A stretch of 36,181 bases of DNA from a virus. Below, in pieces: positions 3,204 to 36,163 of the stretch. The DNA lies in IMG/VR virus record IMGVR_UViG_3300043466_002696, positions 1 to 36,181 of that record. The stretch is one strand, 5' to 3'. Position numbers and translations under genes: made by a program. Within the stretch, counting starts at the first letter, position 1, and every line of letters starts with the position of its first letter. Below the pieces are notes generated by a model. That model was given only the letters and a program-made list of their open reading frames with translations, made no database searches and had not been told where the DNA came from.

Positions 3204-4343
3204 TTAATAAACATAAACTCCCGTATTTCTATGAACTTTCATTTCCAAAACATATCTGATACCATCAATCAAGTGGTTATCAGAATCTACTGGTTCATCT
3301 AAGTTGTTTCCGTTCTTATCTGTCTTCCAAATATAAGATTGCAACTCCTCCTGTAAATTCTTTGAGAATCCATGAACGAAGAAATTGCTTCTCTTAATCA
3401 TATCGATGCCGTGGAGTATCGAATTCTTTTTTACCGGTTTGCAATTTATCCCCGACCTTCTTAACTCTTCAATTGATTGTGGTGATGCTGAGTCAGCAAT
3501 GAAATCATCAGACAGATTTATCCCCAAGTCTTTTATCTTGTAAATAAAGTCTGTAATGGTCACATTTTTTAAGTAGAGCATTTCCTCACAAAATATATTA
3601 TCGTTGAATTTTGATACCTTTACGAGTGTTGAGGGGTCATTGAAACCGAAGTCAATCCCATACCCCAATAACTTTGCTCCTTGTGGTAGGTCCACATAGA
3701 TTTGTTGGTGAGTAAATACCATCTTGGTTGGAACACCTTTAAGTCCCAAACCAAATATTCTCCATAGGTTGGGGTCTCTCTCTTTTAACTTTTCGATTTC
3801 ATCCACTTGCACTTGAGGTAGAAATGGATTATCCTTATACGTAACCAAATTGTATTGAACATCGTCTTGACCTTCCAAATCGTATATCCACGATTTCCAT
3901 AATGATGGGTTGAGGTCGATAACAACGAGACCACTTGTTCTAAGAATGAGTTGAATATATTCGTCATAGGATACTTCCGTTCCTTCGTTGATGAATAGGT
4001 AGTCACGCTTTCTACCTCTAAGTTTTGTCTCATCATCAACTGAGAACCATTCGATGATATTCGTTCCAAGTTCAAAGTATCCATCAACTGAATGCCATTT
4101 CTCTTGGTCATATACATCGAACATTAAAAGGATTTCTTTGAGGTCTCTAAGGACCGAACCCTTTAAGGCTGGTAATGTTTTTCTAACAATAGATAATGTC
4201 TTGTTATCTTCTTGTAATAACTTATAAACAAAGTAGATTAAGATGTTGTATGTCTTGGATGCTCTTGATGAACCCTGAAATACGTTAACCCTCTTGGTTG
4301 AATCCAACAAGTCCTGAAAGACCTTCGTTGTTTTTATTCTCAT
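3204..4343 (-). CDS. terL: Terminase large subunit (packaging ATPase/nuclease)
   Basis: A 379-aa protein with the two-domain terminase layout. The ATPase domain has a Walker A-like QGSSRASKT near residues 23-31 and a Walker B YLFINEGTE near 114-121, with the catalytic Glu after the hydrophobic strand. The C-terminal RNase H-like nuclease shows its acidic residues in GYGIDFGFNDPST (near 227-238), FIADSAS (near 280-286) and DNHLIDGIRY (near 354-363). The length is at the short end for TerL but complete. It packages phage DNA into proheads using ATP and makes the terminal cuts. It lies in the late leftward operon downstream of the small-subunit candidate and the methyltransferase. The start overlaps the preceding 67-aa gene by 59 bp, but Walker A at residue 23 leaves little room for a later start. 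Confidence 0.94.
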   Translation of the reverse strand: MRIKTTKVFQDLLDSTKRVNVFQGSSRASKTYNILIYFVYKLLQEDNKTLSIVRKTLPALKGSVLRDLKEILLMFDVYDQEKWHSVDGYFELGTNIIEWFSVDDETKLRGRKRDYLFINEGTEVSYDEYIQLILRTSGLVVIDLNPSLWKSWIYDLEGQDDVQYNLVTYKDNPFLPQVQVDEIEKLKERDPNLWRIFGLGLKGVPTKMVFTHQQIYVDLPQGAKLLGYGIDFGFNDPSTLVKVSKFNDNIFCEEMLYLKNVTITDFIYKIKDLGINLSDDFIADSASPQSIEELRRSGINCKPVKKNSILHGIDMIKRSNFFVHGFSKNLQEELQSYIWKTDKNGNNLDEPVDSDNHLIDGIRYVLEMKVHRNTGVYVY

Positions 4344-4488: not shown

Positions 4489-4918
4489 ATCTTTTTTTTG
4501 ATAACATTCGTTTATGGAATTTCATCTTATCTGAATCTTGAATATTGTTATTCCAAACATAGTTAGATATTGTATTCAATTCCCTTTTTAATTCTTCGTA
4601 GGTTGTCGGTCTTATTGTGAAGAAGGTATACTCCAACTTTGTAAATGACTTACCAGTGTTAACAAAGGAATCAGGGATATCTTTGTTGAGTAGAAACTCT
4701 TCTCTGAATAGGTCCTTGTTTAATACTGAGTTAACGGTCTGAGATATCTTCTTACATATCCCATTGATTGTTCTCATCTTATCTTCTACATCTGTTTGGA
4801 ATGTTCCTTTGATTTCAAGGAAACATGATTTCAATTTGTTCTTATCTTCTGTTCCACCATAGAAAACTATGTTGGGGTATTCTGCTATTTCTATACTTCT
4901 GAAATCTCTATTGACCAT
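4445..4918 (-). CDS. Hypothetical protein, 157 aa
   Basis: I do not recognise this family. It is a mixed alpha/beta, charged protein with a Lys/Arg/Ser-rich C-terminus (KRMLSKKRYAKKSQERGS) and no membrane segment or signal peptide. Its start overlaps the 3' end of the methyltransferase gene by 11 bp, and its end overlaps the small basic gene. It is therefore co-transcribed between the methyltransferase and terL. A packaging or DNA-binding role is only a guess from position and the basic tail. Confidence 0.7.
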   Translation of the reverse strand: MVNRDFRSIEIAEYPNIVFYGGTEDKNKLKSCFLEIKGTFQTDVEDKMRTINGICKKISQTVNSVLNKDLFREEFLLNKDIPDSFVNTGKSFTKLEYTFFTIRPTTYEELKRELNTISNYVWNNNIQDSDKMKFHKRMLSKKRYAKKSQERGSKSSS

Positions 4919-6260
4919 CGAATAATTTTGTTTGAACTGGTTTATTCTTTTCGTGTTCTATTCTTGCTGATGCTATATCCATATACTCCTGTTCTTTCTC
5001 AATGCCGATGAAATTAAGACCACATCTCACCGCTGCCTTCCCTGTGCTTCCACTTCCCATAAAAGGGTCTAAAATTGTCCCATTTGGTGGTGTAACCAAA
5101 TTGATTAAGTATCTCATTAAATCTGTTGGTTTAACTGTGGGGTGATTGTTTTTGATTTTACCCCATCTACCAAATGGATTTCCATCTTCACCTTCTAATG
5201 CTTTCTCCATATGGTTAGGTCTAAACTCTGCTCCTGCTTTAATCTTTTCCTCAAAATTATCTAACCCTTCGTTTCTATCTTTCTTCGCTGCCTTGGGGCA
5301 ATAGAAGAAACGACTGGCTCCACCTTTATCATTGAAGAACTTACCCTCAACTTTATTTACAATCTCATTATTTTCTGTTCCAACATATTCTTTTCTGTGA
5401 CCCCCTTTGTAATTACCTTCTTCTCTTCCTTTATTGTATTGTTTAATTCCACTTTGTTCGTCCAATAGTTGTCCCGCTTCTTCATCAAAGATTATGTTTG
5501 CAGGAAATCTACCTTGTTCGTTATATTCTTTTATGTTAGGGTCTTCCCATGTAATACCCAAATCATATACCCAATCCTTTTTCTCTCTAACTCTTGGTCT
5601 ATCGAAATTGATGTTCTCTTTGTCTTTCATTTCAATCCTTGAACCATCAATATTTATTCCACCTGTTCCGTGTTTCAATACATTCTCCGCAATTGATTTC
5701 TCACTTATAGGTTTCCTTGCCATAACGATTGGTTCGTGTGCTGGCTTGAGTGCTGTTCCCCAACCTTCGTAATCATGTTCTATTTCCATCTTACCTATTG
5801 CCTTACCGATGTTATGTGACTTGGGGAATCCTGAACCGAATACCCACATCAGTTGGTCTCTAATCTCAAACCCTGCATCTTCAAATGCTGATGCCATTCT
5901 GTGATATGTTCTTGGAGCACTAAACGATAAGATGTGTCCACCTGGCTTTAATATTCTTAAACACTCTTCAGCCCATAACTGACACCATTGTTGAAACCAT
6001 AAACCTTCTTTTCTTCCTTTATAACCTTGACCAGGAAATGGTGAGAAACTTGCTGTAACAGGTGCTGTTCCATTTTCATTTCTGATTTTGCTTCTTTCCA
6101 AATCTCTCTCTTGTTGTTGTCTTAACTTTTCAGGATTATCCCACTCCTTATTCATAAACCCAATTCCATATGGTGGGTCTGTTATTACTGCGTCTATTGA
6201 GTTATCAGGTATTGTTTTCAGGACTTCTAAACAGTCCCCTAATCTTAAGTCTATATTCAT
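4908..6260 (-). CDS. DNA methyltransferase, N6-adenine/N4-cytosine class (beta order)
   Basis: A 450-aa protein. The catalytic motif IV DPPY is at residues 28-31. The AdoMet-binding motif I DPFMGSGST is near 398-406, followed by an acidic-strand motif FIGIEKEQEY. Motif IV before motif I marks the beta class of amino-methyltransferases (N6_N4_Mtase family). The central part (about 160-380) is long and probably holds the target-recognition region. No restriction endonuclease is adjacent, so it is a solitary (orphan) enzyme. It probably protects phage DNA from host restriction or marks it for packaging. Its ATG overlaps the stop of the small upstream gene (TAATG at 6260), so translation is coupled. 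The target site cannot be read from the sequence. Confidence 0.95.
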   Translation of the reverse strand: MNIDLRLGDCLEVLKTIPDNSIDAVITDPPYGIGFMNKEWDNPEKLRQQQERDLERSKIRNENGTAPVTASFSPFPGQGYKGRKEGLWFQQWCQLWAEECLRILKPGGHILSFSAPRTYHRMASAFEDAGFEIRDQLMWVFGSGFPKSHNIGKAIGKMEIEHDYEGWGTALKPAHEPIVMARKPISEKSIAENVLKHGTGGINIDGSRIEMKDKENINFDRPRVREKKDWVYDLGITWEDPNIKEYNEQGRFPANIIFDEEAGQLLDEQSGIKQYNKGREEGNYKGGHRKEYVGTENNEIVNKVEGKFFNDKGGASRFFYCPKAAKKDRNEGLDNFEEKIKAGAEFRPNHMEKALEGEDGNPFGRWGKIKNNHPTVKPTDLMRYLINLVTPPNGTILDPFMGSGSTGKAAVRCGLNFIGIEKEQEYMDIASARIEHEKNKPVQTKLFDGQ

Positions 6261-8466: not shown

Positions 8467-8820
8467 ATGAAAAAAATCTGTAAATCTTGTGGGATTGAAA
8501 AGAACCTAACTTCTTATTTCAAAAACTCAAATAGAAAAGATGGTGTCCAACCAGAATGTAAAATCTGTATGTCAAATACGGTTAAGAACTATAGAAAAAA
8601 AGCTAAAGAAGAAAGGGAGAAATTTGATACCCTAACTTTAAATTTAATCGGTAGTTCCAAAGGGGACTATTGCCAAATGTATTCTTTTATGTCAAAAATC
8701 GGATATAATCCTGAGATGGATATACACCTTCAATTTTGTGAGAAGTGGGGAATTTCGACCTATAAAGAACGAGCAGTGAAACATAAGAATAGATTCACAT
8801 ATGATGATTGTAAGGAATAA
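8467..8820 (+). CDS. Zinc-ribbon protein, 117 aa, the only plus-strand gene
   Basis: Two CxxC pairs (Cys 5/8 and Cys 31/34) frame a motif of the type 'K.C..CG.EK.L..F.KN...KDG....C..C'. This is the treble-clef-like N-terminus often seen with HNH endonucleases and small phage regulators. The following KNYRKKAKEEREK is a basic helix. No HNH catalytic motif is visible in the rest, so nuclease activity is unproven. It is transcribed against all other genes and shares a control region with the leftward leader. It is thus a candidate regulator. Its stop abuts the terminator of the opposing cluster. Confidence 0.75.
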   Translation: MKKICKSCGIEKNLTSYFKNSNRKDGVQPECKICMSNTVKNYRKKAKEEREKFDTLTLNLIGSSKGDYCQMYSFMSKIGYNPEMDIHLQFCEKWGISTYKERAVKHKNRFTYDDCKE

Positions 8821-12161: not shown

Positions 12162-12632
12162 TTAAGGAACTGGGGTTGGGGTAGGAGTTCTTGTCGCTGT
12201 AATAGTCGGAGTCACTGTGATTGTTGGTGTTATGCTTGGTGTTGGTGTATTAGTTGGTGTTGAACTAATTGTAGGGGTTGGACTTGGTTCAATAATATTA
12301 TAAATATTGAAAATTAAATCTTGATTTGTTACTATAGGACCAGGTATTTGTGCGAACCCACTACCAAAATCTCCACCAAATACTTTTGAACCATTTACAA
12401 AATAATCTATGTGTGCACCACCTTCAATCAAGAACATAAATATAGTTCCTGTTTGAGAACCAAAACCATCATTAATTGTTGTATATGTTCCTGTTATATC
12501 GGTGTTTCCCGGACGGAGTGGAAATGTTCCACCCGTTATTGTAAAAGTATTTGATTGGTCTGGTGCTGATGATATGTTTGTTATTGTTGTTTCAGCCCCA
12601 CCCTTCATACTTATTGTAAATAAATTTGCCAT
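12162..12632 (-). CDS. Small virion protein with C-terminal Thr-Pro tail
   Basis: A 156-aa protein. Residues 1-115 look like a compact beta-sandwich (MANLFTISMKGGAETTITNI; GTIFMFLIEGGAHIDYFVNG). The last ~40 residues are T-P-T-x repeats like those in the giant tail proteins, here with nothing after them. It is the last gene of the virion operon, just before two terminators. A surface decoration or fibre-associated protein is plausible because the tail sequence type is shared with the tail genes. The domain itself is not recognised. Confidence 0.75.
   Translation of the reverse strand: MANLFTISMKGGAETTITNISSAPDQSNTFTITGGTFPLRPGNTDITGTYTTINDGFGSQTGTIFMFLIEGGAHIDYFVNGSKVFGGDFGSGFAQIPGPIVTNQDLIFNIYNIIEPSPTPTISSTPTNTPTPSITPTITVTPTITATRTPTPTPVP
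12170..12290 (-). repeat. Thr-Pro repeat tract in the 156-aa gene
   Basis: T-P-T-x codon repeats encode the C-terminal tail. Confidence 0.85.
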
Positions 12633-15683: not shown

Positions 15684-15902
15684 TTAAATCAAGATTGAAG
15701 GAGTGGGTGGAACCCAATCTATCAACGGTAATTCAGTTATCCAATCATAGTTTGGATTTTGATTATTGTCTATCTCTTCTGTTGAGATAATCCAATTTGG
15801 TGGTTCATTACCATCTTGAACTGGATTGAAATACCAGTCTGCTTGTAATAATTGTCCAACCAATTCGTCTTTCTGTTGTATTGTTAATAATGCTACTTTC
15901 AT
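15684..15902 (-). CDS. Hypothetical protein, 72 aa
   Basis: An unrecognised small acidic protein rich in Asp, Asn, Trp and Pro (VGQLLQADWYFNPVQDGNEP; IDNNQNPNYDWITELPLIDW). It lies 3 bp after the 94-aa gene, within the virion operon. Aromatic and Asn/Pro-rich composition suggests a small structural or fibre-associated protein, without proof. Confidence 0.65.
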   Translation of the reverse strand: MKVALLTIQQKDELVGQLLQADWYFNPVQDGNEPPNWIISTEEIDNNQNPNYDWITELPLIDWVPPTPSILI

Positions 15903-15905
15903 AAA

Positions 15906-16190
15906 TTATATTGTTGAACCAGAGAATAGAACACAGCTGTTTATATTTGCTGGTAATATTAAAATGTCGGCAATTTGTTGTTCTGTCATACAAGGAATAA
16001 CATAATCTAAGAGCTCAACACCCCAACCAATTTGCCAAGACTCTCCTGTTGCTTCATCATACTCACACATTAAATCAGGATACGCATAAGTTATAGTTCC
16101 TGAATCATTTGGATAACCTAAACATGTGTCTACCTGTTGAATAAATTGTTCTGCCTCAGGCTTCTGTAAAAAGATGATATACTTTACCAT
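15906..16190 (-). CDS. Hypothetical protein, 94 aa
   Basis: An unrecognised protein beginning [20 protein letters not shown], a beta-helix-like start, followed by an acidic, aromatic middle ([20 protein letters not shown]) and a hydrophobic end. Its start overlaps the end of the 603-aa lectin/linker gene by 7 bp, so the two are coupled. It could be a chaperone or companion of that fibre protein. Confidence 0.65.
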
Positions 16191-17995
16191 GTGTTATATT
16201 GGTATTTTGTTTTCAAATAATTCTCTACTTGCAGAGCTTCACTTGTGGTTAGGTTTCTATTGTAAGCTAAAAACTCAACAACAACTGTATTGTTCGTTGA
16301 AGTTCCACCAGGGTCTCTTCCAATTTGTAGAGAAGTTACATTATTAAATGCTGTTAAAGTTGCTGCAGAAGTCATTAGAGAATCATTAAGAAATACTGAG
16401 GCTGCAGTAGTTGTTCCAGTAACCTCTAATAATAATGGTGTATTGTTCGTAGCACCCGATGTATATTGTCTTCCACCGGCATTTACTAAATAATCTCTCT
16501 GAGCAATTGTTCCTCCACCATTAGTGTAGAATAATACATTCGCTGATGAAGATGAATATGTTTGGAAACCAATATATGCGAAAGTATCAGCAGCAACTCT
16601 TTTACCAACCCAATAGTAAGTATGGGCTGAGAAATTGGTTGAACTGAAACTTGTAGATAACATTACATCTCTTGAACTAAATTCAATACCTGTTCCTGTA
16701 AAAGAACCAAGTGTTGTCGTAACTGAAGATGGTTGATTTATTGCTGTTCCTTGTGTTATACTACCCCCCAATAAACCATAGTTGGTCCATGAAGAAGTTG
16801 TAAATCCTGATGTTGCATCAAACCAAAACTGTAAATTAGATAATTGACTTGGTGAAAATGCTGCTTGAGTTGGACTTGGAGTTATCGTTGGTGTGATACT
16901 CGGAGTTAAACTAATCGTTGGTGTTACTGTAGATGTAACCGTTGGAGTTACAGTATTAGTTGGTGTAATCGTTGGAGTTATTGTTGATGTTATTGTTGGA
17001 GTTATTGTATTGGTAGGAGTTATACTTGGAGTGATACTTGGTGTAATACTCGGAGTTAAAGATATTGTTGGTGTTACTGTCGATGTAATCGTTGGTGTTA
17101 CAGTATTAGTTGGTGTTACTGTCGGTGTTACAGTTGATGTTATTGTTGGCGTTAAAGTATTAGTCGGAGTAATACTTGGTGTAATACTCGGAGTTAAACT
17201 TATCGTCGGTGTTACTGTTGGAGTTTGTGTTGGTGTTCTTGTAGGAGTAACGGTTGGTGTTACCGTTTTAGTTGGAGTAATACTTGGTGTAATTGAAGGT
17301 GTAATACTTGGTGTTAAAGATATTGTTGGCGTAGTTGTAGGTGTCTGTGTAGGAGTTGGAGTCTGAGTCCTTGTCGCTGTCACAGATGGTGTTGGAGTAA
17401 TTGTAGATGTCGGTGTAACGGTATTTGTAGGGGTCTGTGTTGGGGTATCAGTTATGGTTGGAGTAACGGTAGGAGTTGGAGTATTGCTCGACGTAATGGT
17501 AGGTGTAATCGTTGTTGTTGGAGTTATTGTAGGAGTAATTGTCGGAGTGATACTTGGAGTTGGTGTTGGATTTAACTCATTTGGAGCAAAGATATAGTTT
17601 GAGTTATCTTCATTGTCAGAAATATACTCAACATAATAATCGTTTGTTGTATCCGCAGATGTTGCAATAAGAAGAGCTGTTCCATATTCAACCGTATTAT
17701 AAGCCAGTGCTGGATTTAGATTGGTTGGAATTTGTGCAACCTGTTCTAAAATTTTATACGTATACTGACCTTCGTATGGAAAAGGGATTTCACCTAAGTC
17801 TGTTCTTGGTCCTTCAACAAAATCAAACTCATCATATCTAACCTTATGCGTTGATAAGTTAGGTAATACAAAGTTTACCTGTTGCTTTGAGAAGATGTGA
17901 GTAAAGGAGAATAACCATTGAGGATTTGTTAGTTCAGCATTCTGTGATACTGTAACTACCATCTTATTCAATTGTCTTGTCTTAAGTAATATCAT
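16184..17995 (-). CDS. Fibre/adhesin protein: N-terminal virion domain, long Thr-Pro linker, C-terminal LamG-like domain
   Basis: A 603-aa protein. Residues 1-142 form a beta-rich domain ([33 protein letters not shown]) of the type found in small phage structural proteins, probably the virion anchor. Residues ~143-377 are an almost pure T-P-T-x repeat of ~235 residues, the longest in the window. Residues ~378-603 are a LamG/concanavalin-like domain ([47 protein letters not shown]). The order is reversed relative to the 806/860-aa proteins, where the lectin domain is N-terminal. It follows the tube-like gene behind a strong hairpin (18007-18039). A stalk carrying a glycan-binding head is the likely role. 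Confidence 0.82.
16866..17575 (-). repeat. Longest Thr-Pro repeat tract (~710 bp)
   Basis: Degenerate 6/12/18-bp units encode T-P-T-x with long near-identical higher-order blocks ([13 protein letters not shown] repeated several times). Such a tract is prone to slippage, so its length may vary or be misassembled. Confidence 0.92.
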
Positions 17996-18652: not shown

Positions 18653-19621
18653 TTATAATCCGTTAGTCACGAAAAACTCAGGGAAAGCAATTGCTGAACC
18701 TAATTTCCATGCTGACATGATTCTTACCTCTTGGAAGTCTTGTGACCACCATGCTCTAAATGAATCTTCATCAGATGCTAAGTCAGTTCCAACAAGCATA
18801 TACTGCATTGGTCCGATAACGATTAAGTTAGAACCATTCAATCCTGGAACACCTACAACTTTGTAGTTAGTTTGAGGATGGAATACTTCATACACTTGAC
18901 CCAAAGTTGGTTCAGTGAAATGGAAGTTATTCACGTTTCTTAACGCTACACAGTAACATTTGAATTGAGACTGAGACATGTAGATAATGATATCATCTCT
19001 GTCATAAACGTTTCTATCTAAAGAAGCGATTAAGTTATCGATTTGAGCTAATGTGTTGTAAGCCTTCTCAACTGTAGAAGAACCTGTTACAGAACATAAA
19101 GCAGTTTGACCAGTTAATTGAACTACACCAGCAGTGTTGTTAAATAATTGGATGAAACCAGAAAAAGTAGATGAACCTGAAGAAGCATTCCAAAGAGTGT
19201 CTTCGTTAAATCTCTTAATTTGTTTAGTTTGTAAGTCTATGATAGCTTGTTCAAATGGAGCGTTCTCATTGTAAGAACCAGCATTTAAATATTGACCTAA
19301 CCATAGCGTGTTTAATTGTTGTAAGCAAAGACTAATATTCGTCTTAAAGCTCTGAACTGTCACAGGAGCAACAGTAAATGTGGTTTGACCGCTACTTGTC
19401 CATCCACAAGCTGTTCCAGTTTGAACTTGTAAAGTTTCAGAAAGTAAGTTTACGTTTTGTGTTCCTTTAATTCCAGGAATGATATTAACGTAACGCATTG
19501 TTACTGGAGTAAGCACCGCCTCTGATACGATGTCAGCAGAAAGTTGGTCTACATAAGCACCCAAACCGCCTAAATCATATGCATCTGCGAAATTCATTTT
19601 GCTTAAATTTCCTTTTTTCAT
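18653..19621 (-). CDS. Major capsid protein
   Basis: A 322-aa protein of HK97-fold length without an obvious long N-terminal delta domain; scaffold appears to be a separate gene upstream. Features include FADAYDLGGLGAYVDQLSAD near the start, SFKTNISLCLQQLNTLWLGQ (about 90-109) and the acidic/aromatic SDEDSFRAWWSQDFQEVRIM near the C-terminus. Two starts are possible, MKKGN or the Met at residue 9. The order protease, scaffold-like, this gene, tube-like, portal group supports the call. It is likely the most abundant virion protein and is followed by a GC-rich hairpin. Confidence 0.85.
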   Translation of the reverse strand: MKKGNLSKMNFADAYDLGGLGAYVDQLSADIVSEAVLTPVTMRYVNIIPGIKGTQNVNLLSETLQVQTGTACGWTSSGQTTFTVAPVTVQSFKTNISLCLQQLNTLWLGQYLNAGSYNENAPFEQAIIDLQTKQIKRFNEDTLWNASSGSSTFSGFIQLFNNTAGVVQLTGQTALCSVTGSSTVEKAYNTLAQIDNLIASLDRNVYDRDDIIIYMSQSQFKCYCVALRNVNNFHFTEPTLGQVYEVFHPQTNYKVVGVPGLNGSNLIVIGPMQYMLVGTDLASDEDSFRAWWSQDFQEVRIMSAWKLGSAIAFPEFFVTNGL

Positions 19622-24728: not shown

Positions 24729-26798
24729 TCAATAACCACAACATTTGGTCAATGGATTTGACCATATTGTTCCTGTTACGAAAGGAACTGTTGGATTTAG
24801 AGTCGCAGTGCTATCAACGTAGAATCCATTCTTACCAGGGAATGAACTCGAACAATATGGGTAACCAACAGTCAATGGAGTAAGACTATTGACAGTTTGT
24901 TGTTCAGAAGTAAATTCGGTGCAACTTTTAGGGAAAGCTTGATAATTTGTTGGAGTTACTACATAGGTATAATATACAAATGTAGGAGTTACACTTGGAG
25001 TTGGAGTTGGAGTTACAGGTGTTCTTGTTATAGTTGGAGTTGGTGTTGCACTTAACCCTGGTGTTGGTGAAATTGATGGAATACATCTGCCCAAAGCACA
25101 CTCATAATTCGAAACACAAATTGTTAAAATTGATATTTCTTGTGGTGTTAAACCAGAACCAATTGTTACTAATCCAATTCTTTTCGATGAATAAAACTCA
25201 GGTGTTCCATTATTATTATTTGCTGCTATGAACAATTCAAACGGAACTGTTCCATTCGTTGTCGTTGTGGCAGATTGTTCTAACACACCATCTTTATAAA
25301 GATACGATGATGTATTATTAACTCTACTCGAAACAAAGTATCCTGTTGTTGCAGTATTTGTTATCCCTTGTGTAGCATTACCAATTGAATTGATATTATA
25401 TTCACGATAATCTATCCCCCCAATTAAATTGTCTAAAGCTAATCTCCAATAAGTTCCAATACCGCCAGTTCCCCTCTGTGCTCCTAATTCAATTTGTCCA
25501 CCTCTACTATTTGTTTGTGAGTAGTATGATACGTGTGCGGATGTTGTTGGTAGTGTTGTTCCTGAGAGATATGTTCTGGCGTAACCATTAGCACCATTCG
25601 GTGTTGCACCAAGTGAGTTATGTGTCCACCCACCATTGAACGTAAGTCTATACGCCCCGTTTGTATCGATTGGATTTAAAGCATTGAATTTATTAGATGA
25701 TGCGGTTCCACCTATGAAAGGATAGATTGCTGTCATCTTACTTAAAATTCCACTTGTTTCTAAACAACAGAAAAATTCCCTTGTTGCTGCAGATATTGAT
25801 GGTGTTATTCCTGTTCCTCCTGCACTAACAACAGCTGACAAATAGTTGTTGGCAATTACACTCGAGTTAATACAAGGTGTTGGTGTTGGAGTTCTTGTTG
25901 GAGTTTGAGTAGGAGTTAATGTAAGTGTTGCAGTTTGAGTATTAGTCGGTGTTGATGTTATTGTTGGTGTTGGTGTTGGATTCCTTGTTGGTGTTACAGA
26001 AGGAGTTTGGGTTGGAGTATCAGTTATTGTTGGAGTCGGAGTTTGGGTCGGAGTCCTTGTAAGCGTTGGTGTTTGTGTTGCAGTTTGAGTATTAGTCGGT
26101 GTTAATGTTATTGTTGGTGTTGGTGTCTGAGTATTTGTTGGAGTTAAACTTATTGTAGGAGTTATTGTTGATGTAACAGTTGGAGTTTGTGTAGGAGTAT
26201 CAGTTATTGTCGGAGTAGGAGTTTGAGTTGGAGTCCTTGTTGGAGTTGGGGTGTTTGTTGGTGTTGGAGTTAAGAAACATTGTGTTGTTGGTGGTGTATA
26301 AACATACCAGTCAGGATAAGTTGTTGAAACACAACCAGTATCTGTATATCTAAAATCAATCTTTGGATAAATGAACTCTGTGAAATATTGATTTGGTTTA
26401 ATTGATACCGTTGCAAAATCAGTTCCATTTGTTAATGTGAAACTAAGTTGTGGATGGTCATTTGTGAATTGACTGCCAGTATATGCTGAGAAAGTCCAAA
26501 CACCATAAGTATCAAAATAATCAAGTCCATCATTTGGACATTGAAATATCGCATTGTGATAACTGAATCCTGATATGTAACAGAAGTCAATTGGTGTTGG
26601 AGTAGGTGTGGGTGTAACACCTGTGCAATCTCCACTTATAACCAAACCATTTAAGTTAATTAATGGTTTCGAGTTGTCCATACAAACCTCTTGTCCCAAT
26701 GTGAGAGTATAATAGGCAACACTTCCTGTGCAGGTTGTTCCTGATATAAATTTTGAACCTCCTATTGGGTCATTATGAACGTAGTTTGTGCAACTCAT
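24729..26798 (-). CDS. Modular tail protein: Cys modules, Thr-Pro linkers and LamG-like domain, 689 aa
   Basis: Residues 1-60 form a Cys module ([37 protein letters not shown]). A short Pro-Thr run leads to a second beta domain (~70-175). Residues ~176-310 are a T-P-T-x linker. Residues ~311-575 form a LamG-like domain (AAIYPFIGG-type start, [37 protein letters not shown]). A further Pro-Thr stretch (~580-604) precedes a C-terminal Cys-containing domain. The gene lies between the large baseplate-like protein gene and the tape measure. It is probably an externally displayed tail component binding glycans. The domain order differs from the other LamG-linker proteins in the window. Confidence 0.78.
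25870..26275 (-). repeat. Thr-Pro repeat tract in the 689-aa gene
   Basis: T-P-T-x codon repeats with near-duplicate blocks ([19 protein letters not shown] occurs twice). Part of the shared linker family. Confidence 0.9.
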
Positions 26799-26814: not shown

Positions 26815-29800
26815 TTAACAAGGTGATGTCGCACAATCTTCATTAGTTGAACAAGGTGTTCCACATGGGTTTATGTTAATGTTAGGGTCAGCAAGTGGTA
26901 AGTCCTCAGAACAGATACTAACACTTGAGAATGCTGCTAAACTATCTGATACAGGAGTTGATGAACCACATTGTGTATATGAATAATCCCCACCTGTTCC
27001 TGTTGAGTTAGTCAATGTATAACATAGACATCCTCCGACTGTTGTTGATGGTGTAATAGTAGGAGTTGGTGTTTTTGTAGGTGTTGGTGTAACTGATGTA
27101 GATGTTGGTGTTGGAGTTAATGCTTCAGTCTGACTTGGTGTCGGAGTTACAGTATTAGTTGGTGTTGGTGTCGGAGTAACTGGTGTTGCTGTTACAGTTG
27201 GGGTAACTGTTGGAGTTACACTTTGTGATGATGTTGGAGTTGGTGTCACACAAGTTGTAGAACATATTCCTTCTTCAACAACAGGACCAGGTCCAAACAT
27301 TGTTCCTCTTCTAACCCCACCTGATGGAGAACAAGCAATAGTAAATGCGTCACCAGGATTTACGAAAGAATCCTGAGTTATTCCATCACAATCTCTCCAT
27401 ACAACTAAACCATAATCAGTTGCTGGTCCGAATGAATATGAATAACATTCAATACAAGGGGTTGTTGTTGGAGTTGGAGTTGGAGTTACAGCTGTTGATG
27501 TAATTGTCGGAGTTGGAGTTGGGGTTCTTGTCGGTGTAGATGTTGGAACAAAATTACAATCTGTGCAACCTGTGAATGAAGCTATCTCAGTCCATGAAAC
27601 TAATTGAAGGAATGTTGGAGTAACACCTGTCACACAAACATTCTGAGTTGTTCCTGAATTGAATATCTTATAAACAAGACCTGTATTTTCAAGGTTTGCA
27701 CTTGTTGACCTGAAATTATATTGTGTTGATGTATTACATTCAACACCAATATAGTTAAAGTATCTTATATCCACTGGTTCTTCTTGAACAAGATTCAAAT
27801 CTGTTCTACCAGTGCAACCACAATCAGGATAAGCGTTGACCAATTCTATGTTGGTATATCCTGAACTTAAATAATAATGTTCGTAAGTATAAGTGTCATC
27901 AAATGCACTTATGATAACATTATAACAACCTAAGTAATTTAAGTTGTCATTATATAGTCTAACGTATCTGTCTGCATAAGAATATAGATGATACATTAAG
28001 TCTGAATTGGAATGTAATTCAGGACCACCCGCACAAGGTATTAAGTCATAGTATAATACTCTATGACCTTCATATTCTTTCGTAAGTTTAACAAGTTCAA
28101 TATCACAAACACCAGGTTCAAGAGCATTGAAGTTTGTGATTTGATTGATTCTAAAATAGGTATTGTTGATTAAGATTCTCTCATTCCATCTAAGACCTTG
28201 TATGTCTTGTGGATAAAGATAAATCTTGGCTTTGTATATCTTATTTTCTTCACTTATTAAATCATCCACATAAGGCTTATAATAAATGTCATACAAGTCT
28301 GGTGCAACAAATGAGTATTCTGATGGTGTAATATTTGTTTTATCTTCCCCTCTGAAATTACAATAGTGTGAGAAGTTATTATAGTTAAATGGATAAGTTG
28401 TGAATCGGTTCAAGTTCGTGAATATACTTGCTTGATATTGGTCCATAAACCAACTCTGATATACAGCTGGACTTATTGAACTACCACATTGTGTTCCTGA
28501 ATTAGTTACTGTGAATGCCGCTAAATCTGCATAAGGAACACCACCAGTTACTGAGGTATTATCAATACAACCAGGAATTACTTTCGACCCTGTTGTTGAA
28601 TAGAATTGATATGTTGAATTTCCAAAACAATCATTCCATTTTACCCAACCGGTATCAGTTACGTTGATAGTTACACCTGATGTGCAAGTTGGGTCACCAG
28701 AAACTACTTGTGGACCACCAACAAATCCCCAATTGTCTGTTGGTAATGTTGGTCCTCTGAATATCAATTTTGGTAATACCTTAAATGGAACGAATGTTTG
28801 TTGTGGTTGTCCCGCAACATCAACTGATTTTAACTTTGACATCGATGACACTGTAATTAGTGGCACCCATGAGTTATTAATTGTTATATCAATTGGAGAT
28901 GAGAACATATAATCAAACTTGGTCTCAGCATCTTTATACTCTTGATTAAGTTTAAATTTATCTGTTCCAAATGTTCTGTTTGTTTGTCCTTTGAAATCTT
29001 GGTTGGCGTAGTCTTGGTCTAACTTAAAATCATAAAAGAGTGTTCCATTAATTAACGAGTTAGTAGGATATAAAGATTGAGGTTGATTGTAGTCTATCTT
29101 TGTTGTCCAATCTAATACACCTCCCTTACCAACATAATCTATAATCGGTTCAACGATTAGCGTCTTCGGTTTATCAGGATTCGGAACTACTATCAGATTG
29201 AAATATTTGTTAATCGATGTTATGAAATCAATTTGTGTATAATCATTCGAAGGGAATTCCTCTGCATAGTTAATGGTAGTTCCTGTTGGTAAGAATCTCG
29301 GACTTGAAACCATTTCCGCTGTGAATCCTGATACTGTTGCAAATTGACCTCTCAAGAAAAAACTCACAGTAGATGCACCAGTGAAGTTAAAAGATTGAGT
29401 AAACTGAACCGTGTTAACCTCTCCATTGTCACACCACTGAGTTGAATAAAATGGTGTTTGTGCTATTCCATCATCTATTGCTAATTCAACAGTTGGAATA
29501 TTGAAAGATTGATATATACATGCACCAATTAGATTCATTGTGAATCTGTAAGTATATTCTCCCGCAAATTGTGCTGGAACGGTAAATGTTGTTGCACTCA
29601 ATGTATATCCAAGAGTATTACAACTCACACCTGAGTTTGGAACTGTATCAACTCTTGTTAAATAACTTGTTAAATCAAAATCTTGTGGACCATATTTGTA
29701 ACATCCAACGATTGAGTTCTTAGCATAAATTGTTTCATCTAAGAACTTGAGTGGCATGTAGTAATGTTTGAAATAGTCAGTATTGAAAAACTCTGATTCA

Positions 29801-32756: not shown

Positions 32757-33557
32757 TTATTTGATTACATTTAATCCGAAACCTGGCAAACCAGTTCCTG
32801 TTGTTGTGCTTTGATTCGTTTGAATATCAGAATTACTATATGATGATTGAACTGGTAGTGTATTGATTATATAAGTTCCTTGTGGTAACATACCAATTCT
32901 TGAACCGTTGTTTAGATTTGTGCCAGTTGTATTTAAATAATAACCCAATGTTTCGGGAAAGGATTGGTTTCTCGCAGATATAGAAGGTGCAGTATATCTT
33001 ACCGTTGGGGTAACACCCCCATTAGATACATAAAATGCGAATACATAAAATCCTCCACCCGTTCCACTGAATGATAGTGTTGAAGGTAACACAGTTGTTT
33101 TTACTCCCGTAGAACCAGCACTTGTTAATGTTATACCACTCATGATTAAATCTTTTGGGGCAATACCAATATTAGGAACTAATTGTAATGAATAGAAAAA
33201 TCCTGTAACAACATCACTTGTTGATGTAAGTGTTCCTAAGTTATAAGTTATAGCACTATAAGATGCAACACCATTATCATAGAATACATTATATTGTAAT
33301 CTATTCTGAGAGTTTACGGACATTGCAGTTCCGACTCCTCCTTGAAAACCATTACCCATAAAATCAGGTAATAAATTCATGTTGAAATTTAATACATTTG
33401 GTGCTGTAAAGAAGTTGGTTGCAATTCTTGCTCCTGTATTATTACCAAGTCCATCTTGGATTGGTTGAAGAGTTGATGTAATACCATTTGTTGAATCTTG
33501 TAAATTCAATAATCCATCGTAGGTATTTTGTATTTGTTGTCCCGTTAAATTAGACAT
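32757..33557 (-). CDS. Virion protein with fibre-like N-terminus, 266 aa
   Basis: It starts NLTGQQIQNTYDGLLNLQDS, with TLQPIQDGLGNNTGARIATN: an N-terminal motif that recurs in phage tail-fibre and neck-fibre proteins of Bacteroidota phages. The rest is beta-rich and Gly/Ser/Thr/Asn-rich (FNMNLLPDFMGNGFQGGVGT; GFYVFAFYVSNGG), without Thr-Pro linkers. It lies between the 860-aa adhesin gene and the gp10-like gene. A small fibre or decoration protein is likely. Confidence 0.65.
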   Translation of the reverse strand: MSNLTGQQIQNTYDGLLNLQDSTNGITSTLQPIQDGLGNNTGARIATNFFTAPNVLNFNMNLLPDFMGNGFQGGVGTAMSVNSQNRLQYNVFYDNGVASYSAITYNLGTLTSTSDVVTGFFYSLQLVPNIGIAPKDLIMSGITLTSAGSTGVKTTVLPSTLSFSGTGGGFYVFAFYVSNGGVTPTVRYTAPSISARNQSFPETLGYYLNTTGTNLNNGSRIGMLPQGTYIINTLPVQSSYSNSDIQTNQSTTTGTGLPGFGLNVIK

Positions 33558-33567
33558 ATATTTTTAT

Positions 33568-33642
33568 TTTAAGTTTTTATTTATATTGTATTCCACAATC
33601 CTGTTTCACTATCCCAATTTGTTGAGTTGGTATTCCATAGTT
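33568..33642. repeat. Exact 75-bp repeat, copy 2 (other copy 1-75)
   Basis: This is the 3' end of the 860-aa gene plus spacer, identical to the first 75 bases of the window. Confidence 0.95.
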
Positions 33643-36163
33643 TACCACCTCCTCCACCACTCGGAGTTACGGTTTGAGTTGGAGTTGGTGTTGGTGATGG
33701 ACAAGGTCCAATTGCAATTGCAGACCCAGCACCATCATAAGTGAATGTCCCAAACTTACCACATAATTCTGTTGTATCTGAACCTGGTAAGAAAATAGTT
33801 CCTGGTGTTCCATCACAGTTTATCCAATAAAAATTAGAACCAAAACCACCTGCACCCAAAGAATATAAAGAACATTCTCCACTTGTCTCTGAAGGTGTTT
33901 GTGTTGGTGTTAATGTAGGAGTAATCGATGGGGTATTTGTTACCGTTGGTGTTGGAGTTACACTACTTGTTGGAGTTTGTGTAGGAGTCTCTGTAACTGT
34001 TGTTGTAATTGTTGGAGTTTGTGTAGGTGTATCTGTAACCGTTGGTGTAGGTGTCTCTGTTGGTGTTTCTGTAACCGTAGGAGTTACCGTTGGTGTTTGT
34101 GTTGGGGTTTCAGTTACGGTTGGAGTTGGAGTCTCAGATGATGTTGGAGTTATTGTTGTTGTAACCGTAGGTGTTATTGTTGGAGTGATTGAAGGTGTTG
34201 GTGTGATGAATGATTCAAATGCTGCATCACATCTATCAACAGGAGTCATTACTTCAATCTTTAAAGTTGCAGACCAACCTCCTACATAATCAGCATATTT
34301 TTCTAAGAACGGAGAACACACAATTGGATTATTCAAATAATAATCTTTATTAAAATTACCTAATGCATCTGTAACTGATAATCTAAACTGACTTATGATA
34401 TCATCTAATATTTGGTTTGTATCTGATAACACATCGGTTTGATTTGATAAATCTTCTTCAAGAATATCCATTACAATAACCAAAAATTCATAATTGGTAT
34501 ATTGCATGTTCTGACTAACATTTTGAGGAACAACATATAACAATGGATATACTGGACTATTATCGTTTATATTCTCAGACTTTAATACTGATTCAATATA
34601 GTATGCAAGGTCTTGTAATTGTCCAAACCCAAATGAGTTTAATTGTTTGTGATGGTCAGATAACAATAAGAAATCATCATGGAATGTTTTGAAGTTAATC
34701 CACTCATGCATGATTGGTGTTCCAGTAAAAGTATTATATGCTGCAGCACAACGATTTAATGGTGTCATTGTTTTAATCTTCAACTCACAGTTCCAACCAT
34801 TCGTTAGGTCCTGTTTCTTTTCCATAAACGGAATAAGAGTTAAAGTTTCATCTACAAAATACTTATCGTAGAAGTTTCCAAATTCGGCGGTTGTTGAATA
34901 TCTATATTGACTAATTACATCTTGTAATATTTGTAGTGTGTCAGATAAGGTGTCAACTTGATTATCTAAATCTCTTTCAACAATATCCATCATAAGACAA
35001 TTGAAATTCCATGTCTTGTAATGTAGTTCATTCACAATCTTTGATGGGACAACATAGAACAATGGATATACTGGACTGTTGTATTCAGGGTTTGTTCCCT
35101 TCAATATTTGTTCGGTCCAATAAGATATTTGGTCAACATTACCAAGTCCAAATGAATTGATTTGTTTGTGTTTACTCGCCATGAGGTTGAAGTCATTCGC
35201 AAGTGTTCTGAAATTGATTTCTTTTGGTGTCTCAGATGGTGTTGGTTGTGGAACTGGTGATGAAGTATTGGTTGGAGTTATTGACGGAGTATTTGTTATT
35301 GTGGGAGTGACAGTTGGAGTCTGTGTATTTGTTGGGGTAACAGTGGGAGTTTGTGTATTGGTAGGTGTTTGAGTGGGTGTATCTGTTATCGTTGGAGTTG
35401 GGGTCGGTGTAATATTCGGTGCATCATATCTGTCAATTAGATAATCGAACATTTCAGTTAGTTCTGTTGAATTTAACTTTTTGTTAAACCAAAATTGTTC
35501 TGCCATGTTCCCTCTAAAATTGCTAGAAACAACAATACCAGGATTTAATACTGGTGGAACAGATGTGAATGTTGTTGAGTTGGAATTAACTAATGTATCG
35601 TTAATCCATAATTCAATCCTATATAATGGTCCATCTTGATAACATCTGAATGCTTGGTTAATCCAAGTATTTGCACTCAGAGTTTGACTCATGTTTAAGA
35701 ATCCACTTGAGGTATTAGGGTCTGCCCAAACATTGTATTCTATTGTTGACCCTTGTATCTTATTTTGAAACCATCTATATGGGACTGTTGTTCCATTATA
35801 CAATAAACCATTGATACCACCACCCGCATCAGAAGAACAAATAACATCATCGGATGCTGACCCTGTGAAAATATATCTTGAAAAAACTGTGAAATCAGAA
35901 GTTCCTGAATATTGACCATTCAGTGATGACATCAAGGAAACTCCACCATTTGGAGAAAAAATAGTTCCTCCACTAAAGTTCGGTGTTGTTGCAGAATAAA
36001 TTCCATTTTGGAAACCAACTCTACTTGATGGGTCTGTTTGGAAATATGTTGTTGCATTTAGTCCATCAATTACACTCAATATTTGATTTCCTGATAAATT
36101 CAGAAATGCTGGATTACTGTATTGATTCCACCATGTTAAACCTGATATACTAATTGGGGTCAT
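33581..36163 (-). CDS. Giant tail/adhesin protein, paralogue of the 806-aa protein, with extra Cys module
   Basis: An 860-aa protein with the same plan as the gene at 14-2434: LamG-like domain (~1-247), Thr-Pro linker (~248-309), two ~165-aa domains (~312-480 and ~485-652), Thr-Pro linker (~653-756), then an inserted Cys module (CSLYSLGAGGFGSNFYWINC... CPSP, ~757-815), and the same C-terminal LWNTNSTNWDSETGLWNT tag. The first copy of the domain resembles the first copy in the paralogue more than its own second copy, and likewise for the second. Domain duplication therefore came before gene duplication. Interior DNA is strongly diverged while the two ends are identical (repeats at 33568-33642 and 36127-36181). 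Function as a host-binding tail appendage is inferred. Confidence 0.85.
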   Translation of the reverse strand: MTPISISGLTWWNQYSNPAFLNLSGNQILSVIDGLNATTYFQTDPSSRVGFQNGIYSATTPNFSGGTIFSPNGGVSLMSSLNGQYSGTSDFTVFSRYIFTGSASDDVICSSDAGGGINGLLYNGTTVPYRWFQNKIQGSTIEYNVWADPNTSSGFLNMSQTLSANTWINQAFRCYQDGPLYRIELWINDTLVNSNSTTFTSVPPVLNPGIVVSSNFRGNMAEQFWFNKKLNSTELTEMFDYLIDRYDAPNITPTPTPTITDTPTQTPTNTQTPTVTPTNTQTPTVTPTITNTPSITPTNTSSPVPQPTPSETPKEINFRTLANDFNLMASKHKQINSFGLGNVDQISYWTEQILKGTNPEYNSPVYPLFYVVPSKIVNELHYKTWNFNCLMMDIVERDLDNQVDTLSDTLQILQDVISQYRYSTTAEFGNFYDKYFVDETLTLIPFMEKKQDLTNGWNCELKIKTMTPLNRCAAAYNTFTGTPIMHEWINFKTFHDDFLLLSDHHKQLNSFGFGQLQDLAYYIESVLKSENINDNSPVYPLLYVVPQNVSQNMQYTNYEFLVIVMDILEEDLSNQTDVLSDTNQILDDIISQFRLSVTDALGNFNKDYYLNNPIVCSPFLEKYADYVGGWSATLKIEVMTPVDRCDAAFESFITPTPSITPTITPTVTTTITPTSSETPTPTVTETPTQTPTVTPTVTETPTETPTPTVTDTPTQTPTITTTVTETPTQTPTSSVTPTPTVTNTPSITPTLTPTQTPSETSGECSLYSLGAGGFGSNFYWINCDGTPGTIFLPGSDTTELCGKFGTFTYDGAGSAIAIGPCPSPTPTPTQTVTPSGGGGGKLWNTNSTNWDSETGLWNTI
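33890..34205 (-). repeat. Thr-Pro repeat tract in the 860-aa gene (second linker)
   Basis: T-P-T-x codon repeats. Bases 34077-34129 match 189-241 exactly, and 34050-34087 match 294-331 exactly. Confidence 0.9.
35235..35420 (-). repeat. Thr-Pro repeat tract in the 860-aa gene (first linker)
   Basis: T-P-T-x codon repeats between the LamG-like domain and the first ~165-aa domain. Confidence 0.9.

Follow-up and report, generated by a model that had tools for sequence, protein, structure and literature searches.

A putative Thr-Pro joint between conserved anchors and exchangeable, mostly lectin-like modules in several structural genes of uncultivated aquatic phages

The analysed DNA (hereafter the window) is a whole virus record of 36,181 bp, in which the structural genes lie on the minus strand. 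Six open reading frames (ORFs), which we name by length (i.e. the 806-, 860-, 603-, 689-, 1243- and 156-aa ORFs), together contain thirteen Thr/Pro-rich segments, 2,736 bp in total. The reported span, 16866–17575, corresponds to the linker of the 603-aa ORF (234 residues; 16868–17569, minus strand; 44% Thr and 21% Pro), whose repeats are also visible at the DNA level; over the 891 linker residues as a whole, Thr makes up 45% and Pro 24%. The best segment score exceeds the best of 500 own-composition shuffles in all six proteins, with 107 versus 17 in the 603-aa protein and 18.6 versus 12.2 in the weakest, the 156-aa protein. The T-P-T-x repeats that the original prediction had placed in six ORFs and over more than 2 kb are therefore far above chance, and they lie, as it also said, between modules or as a C-terminal cap. 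The long ORFs on the plus strand across from the linkers (e.g. 16893–17366 and 1410–1772) merely mirror the repeats and are not genes. Judging from synteny, the Thr-Pro proteins are probably located in the virion. The features of four of the six genes and of the small genes beside the 603-aa gene are as follows:

12165–12287, minus: 41-aa Thr-Pro C-terminal cap, 156-aa protein (segment scan)
15687–15902, minus: type A small gene, 71 aa (97% and 89% identical to the L029 and L007 copies)
15906–16190, minus: type B small gene, 94 aa (goes with some LamG-like modules)
16184–16867, minus: C-terminal module, LamG/ConA-like family (CL2), 603-aa protein (profile match, PilC)
16868–17569, minus: 234-aa Thr-Pro linker, 603-aa protein (segment scan, DNA repeats)
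17570–17995, minus: N-terminal anchor domain, 142 aa, 603-aa protein (69 orthologs, window included)
24981–25046, minus: 22-aa second Thr-Pro linker, 689-aa protein (segment scan)
25047–25874, minus: CL3 module, 689-aa protein (AlphaFold2 pLDDT 85.5, pTM 0.87)
25875–26270, minus: 132-aa Thr-Pro linker, 689-aa protein (segment scan)
27040–27246, minus: 69-aa Thr-Pro linker, 1243-aa protein (segment scan)
27457–27546, minus: 30-aa Thr-Pro linker, 1243-aa protein (segment scan)

Here L numbers denote related loci and CL numbers denote module families. The N-terminal domain of the 603-aa protein has no Pfam or PHROG match and no convincing PDB match; its model is poor (pLDDT 58.4), with no PDB match above Z 5. 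The C-terminal module of this protein has weak profile matches to the PilC lectin-type pilin (E 1e-4) and to trypanosomal sialidases (E ∼0.1). A Pfam search of the window modules gave no LamG match at E<1, and PF13385 (Laminin_G_3) matched one of the 17 members of this module family at E 0.037, short of the cut-off. The name LamG used in the original prediction is thus a loose one, with weak lectin-type support for this module. The middle module of the 689-aa protein belongs to a different sequence family, CL3, and hhalign found no sequence relation between the two. The best structural match of the CL3 model is domain 4, the sugar-binding domain, of the arabinanase AbnA (Z 17.1 over 185 residues), and many lectin-type domains also match at Z 14–16. 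As modelled, CL3 has a ConA-type jelly-roll lectin fold and is a predicted carbohydrate binder.

The 806- and 860-aa ORFs occupy the two ends of the contig:

95–436, minus: 114-aa Thr-Pro linker 2, 806-aa protein (segment scan)
437–1462, minus: duplicated core, 342 aa, 806-aa protein (one copy in 18 of 18 relatives)
1463–1693, minus: 77-aa Thr-Pro linker 1, 806-aa protein (segment scan)
1694–2434, minus: N-terminal LamG-like module (putative fold), 806-aa protein (33% identical to the 860 copy)
33662–33700, minus: 13-aa Thr-Pro linker 3, 860-aa protein (segment scan)
33884–34204, minus: 107-aa Thr-Pro linker 2, 860-aa protein (segment scan)
34205–35224, minus: core, 860-aa protein (whole gene 99.6% identical to L190)
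35225–35419, minus: 65-aa Thr-Pro linker 1, 860-aa protein (segment scan)
35420–36163, minus: N-terminal LamG-like module, 860-aa protein (second version of the 806 gene)

The two proteins are 59% identical in alignment. Read in the direction of transcription, the contig starts with 55 bp that have an exact copy at the start of the 806 gene and ends with 75 bp that have an exact copy at the end of the 860 gene. This gene type is single-copy in all 18 relatives that contain both flanking genes (242 and 266 aa), and L190 has, as its sole copy, a gene 99.6% identical to the 860 gene over 2,749 bp, while the neighbouring genes are 70–80% identical. This suggests that the genome is circular or permuted and that 806 and 860 are probably one gene divided by the ends of the contig, as alleles, as a recent tandem copy or through an assembly join. 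The "six virion proteins" of the original prediction are thus six ORFs, but not six independent loci. In L087, whose core is 98% identical, the LamG-like module at the N-terminus of the 806-aa protein is missing; a separate search with the 806-type core found CL14 or LamG-like modules in front of it and CL3, LamG-like or CL21 modules behind it, with Thr-Pro joints.

Some further features of this region and its surroundings can be recorded here. Proteins of the 806 type, those of many relatives included, often have a conserved end tail like LWNTNSTNWDSETGLWNTI (14–90 and 33581–33660 in the window). The 266-aa gene (32757–33557) is highly variable (47% identical to L087, versus 98% for its neighbours), and the 99.6% match to L190 stops within it, at 33432. 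The terminase gene (3204–4343) marks another mosaic boundary, with 54% identity to L087 versus 94–98% for nearby genes. In the part of the ORFs that was searched, no replication or recombination genes were recognisable in the contig (6300–12200), apart from an endonuclease VII-like ORF (8467–8820) and a DNA methyltransferase (4908–6260); the genome looks nearly complete.

We then compared about 190 related loci, which are metagenomic contigs of uncultivated aquatic phages. A search with the capsid-like protein (18653–19621) yielded 80 loci, 53 of them with Thr-Pro proteins, and splitting these proteins at their linkers gave ∼25 module families. About 15 of the 69 N-domain orthologs are stand-alone proteins of ∼140 aa that stop where the linker would start. 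The 603-type N-domain may thus be naked, carry the linker only, or carry both the linker and a module from one of six or more families (i.e. LamG-like, CL3, CL5, CL14, CL16 and CL21). The distal modules are optional, and the same linker is joined to other modules in related phages, a check that the original prediction had named. On the MCP tree (61 loci), the module state of the 603-type gene changes at least 21 times. Close pairs (MCP 93–99% identical) have both flanks ∼84–98% identical and different modules: the window and L007 (MCP 93%) are 88–90% identical on both sides of a LamG-like module in the former and a CL3 module in the latter, and modules also differ in L027/L033, L049/L053, L071/L082 and L017/L047.

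Breakpoints were placed by windowed identity rather than by blastn ends, because Thr-Pro DNA aligns at roughly 65–75% to any other Thr-Pro DNA. In swapped pairs, homology is usually lost within the first 0–100 linker codons (60-nt windows). In three pairs (i.e. L027/L028, L028/L033 and L039/L048) the N-domain itself is already less similar, which indicates that exchange is not restricted to the linker. As a control, the window and L029 (MCP 96%), which share a module, keep a linker identity of 83–100%, whereas in L007/L029 (MCP 97%), with swapped modules, it drops to 68–80%. Modules are replaced as cassettes, and their phylogenies conflict with the gene and MCP phylogenies. This strongly supports the module shuffling that had been proposed: by the refutation test set for it, the modules are not passed on vertically.

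A small gene often accompanies the module. Type B is located after LamG-like genes in L029, L049, L066 and L038. Type A is located directly 3' of CL3 in L007 and, after dereplication, directly follows the 603-type gene in seven of the eight cases with CL3 versus none of the 18 others (p = 1.2e-5). Of the 90 type A genes in all loci, 85 stand immediately behind a CL3 ORF; the selection of part of the loci by CL3 inflates these numbers but leaves the adjacency unaffected. The sequence distances of CL3 and type A are also correlated (Mantel r 0.50, p 0.001), and CL3 usually travels with this gene. Where CL3 is part of an 806-type gene, type A is present in only one of six cases, and it is therefore not obligatory in cis. 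In the window, type A is placed behind type B, which is consistent with a replaced CL3 cassette; it is probably a relic of a former CL3 cassette that gave way to the LamG-like one. Neither the type A nor the type B protein has a significant Pfam or PHROG match, and a chaperone-like role for the small gene would be a guess.

Our results also reveal that modules move between genes. Several families occur in two to four different genes: CL3, LamG-like and CL5 modules are each present in three or four, and the LamG-like family CL2 is present in 603-, 689-, 1243- and 806-type genes. Relatives of the 156-aa protein in L013 and L046 contain an extra module past the linker. In the careful CL3 tree, starred branches require that CL3 entered the 689-type gene at least twice. 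A wider quick tree covers 37 CL3 copies linked through Thr-Pro, with anchors of nine families, and requires at least 16 changes of anchor; in it, the CL3 of L007 is sister to one borne by an unrelated anchor in L099 (98*). In a wide CL3 scan, the Thr-Pro segment, wherever there is one, lies on the N-side of CL3, and in many phages CL3 comes with no linker at all. The nearest homologs of CL3 among viral models include phage proteins named for collagen repeats or Ig-like domains, which suggests that Thr-Pro is one of several joints.

These observations lead us to a reading to which we assign a probability of roughly 0.72: Thr-Pro segments are joints between conserved anchors and exchangeable, mostly lectin-like modules, which are swapped as cassettes, including between genes. 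The segment would be an extended, low-complexity stalk and a common joint from a structural-protein anchor to a display module. The distal module would be replaced together with, usually, the neighbouring stretch of stalk and, often, a small cognate gene past the stop codon, and such cassettes would pass between phages and between different structural genes. The stalk would accept almost any length and composition in frame, so that junctions inside it would be harmless and hence kept. Sequence comparison finds a conserved anchor with a variable distal module, the arrangement of an adhesin or receptor-binding protein, and the segments fit the idea of a stalk; we infer both adhesin function and stalk shape. 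The likely outcome would be a fast change of the glycans or surfaces bound by the particle.

The original prediction also held that the linkers create DNA homology between unrelated genes, which could drive the shuffling. Against a synonymous-codon null, exact 15-mers shared between genes number 94 versus 80 ± 20 and exact 20-mers 19 versus 7 ± 6, a value reached in 14 of 300 null runs; between-gene sharing is thus close to the level expected from protein sequence and codon usage, and linker homology as a driver is a less secure part of the proposal than the shuffling itself. Such sharing is consistent with ordinary homologous recombination via conserved flanks (i.e. the MCP, N-domain and portal sides) in which linker DNA has no part, as are the conservation of both flanks in close pairs and the location of some crossovers upstream of the linker. 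We regard this explanation as a strong competitor, at somewhat less than even odds. However, modules move between genes although different genes share no flanks, which indicates that some junctions lie at the linker or at no homology. A bolder version, in which one Thr-Pro joint serves several particle positions and lectin-like modules move with their partner gene by recombination seeded in stalk DNA, is rather doubtful; if true, a phage lineage could re-deploy one binding module at different virion sites. Within genes, repeated 20-mers number 34 versus 4, a value reached in none of 300 null runs, so linkers do lengthen by duplicating stretches of their own. A scheme in which low complexity expands independently in each gene and is inherited vertically, with no exchange, may hold for linker length; for the modules it is contradicted by their conflicting phylogenies, and as a general account it is improbable.

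Part of the variation could instead be an assembly artefact, with repeats joining alleles or strains, since the loci are metagenomic contigs and chimeric assembly at repeats can imitate swaps. This is possible at 806/860, where the contig ends lie inside shared exact repeats and the match to L190 far exceeds that of its flanks. Against this, metagenomes independent of one another contain the same architectures, complete with partner genes and phylogenetic structure, and we consider it unlikely that such artefacts account for part of the variation. Least probable of all is the mucin-like stalk of the original prediction, O-glycosylated by a host Bacteroidota system. The Thr and Pro content would suit it, and terminase relatives, distant ones, include Flavobacterium and Bacteroides phages. 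Tailed-phage virions, however, assemble in the cytoplasm. The Bacteroidota pathway recognizes the motif D-S/T-[ALVIMT] and acts on non-cytoplasmic proteins (PMC12871550). This motif is absent from all 891 linker residues (which contain six DTP only), versus 14 occurrences elsewhere in the same proteins, and the window ORFs searched in PHROGs gave no glycosyltransferase match.

A further comparison is with the Nonlabens phage P12024S (Inhavirus), which shows distant synteny through the protease/scaffold, the MCP (20% identity), a 176-aa homolog (28%) and the portal (29%). In the slot of the 603 gene it has gp05 (125 aa), which lacks a Thr-Pro linker and shows no convincing similarity (E 0.012 when nine proteins were searched). 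No match was found in a host search of genome contigs with MCP and CL3 profiles, nor by tblastn when the 860 protein or the core of 806 served as query; at the DNA level, the first 25 kb had no near match in phage records, and a literature search on proline/threonine linkers in phage fibres found nothing on point.

Distal-module exchange in one fibre gene is already known. In phages of the lambda, Mu and T4 type, the tail fibre and a small assembly gene are exchanged together. The loci described here are similar in that a small gene immediately behind the putative distal binding module moves along with it, but no described family significantly matches the type A or B proteins. Closest in working are the Streptococcus thermophilus antireceptors, in which collagen-like repeats sometimes lie between the domains, so that low-complexity repeats part host-recognition domains, and in which the variable region VR2 is held to be the main determinant of host range (PMC5601072, citing Duplessis and Moineau 2001). 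By contrast, the repeats are Thr-Pro here and collagen-like there, several unrelated structural genes are involved here and one antireceptor there, and the portions of that account consulted report no partner gene. Marine metaviromic islands, in which lectin-like, carbohydrate-binding and tail-fibre regions differ among otherwise similar phages, also combine a conserved N-terminus, repeats and a variable C-terminus; the relevant sections of their description (PMC3909814) mention no linker common to several genes and no module moving between genes. One linker type common to several unrelated structural genes would be a new variant on modular phage adhesins, and modules moving with their partner gene among genes would make exchange genome-wide rather than limited to one fibre. 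The Thr-Pro joint and the type A gene could serve as a marker for unrecognised adhesins in uncultivated aquatic phages, and the close natural pairs offer material for comparing binding specificity.
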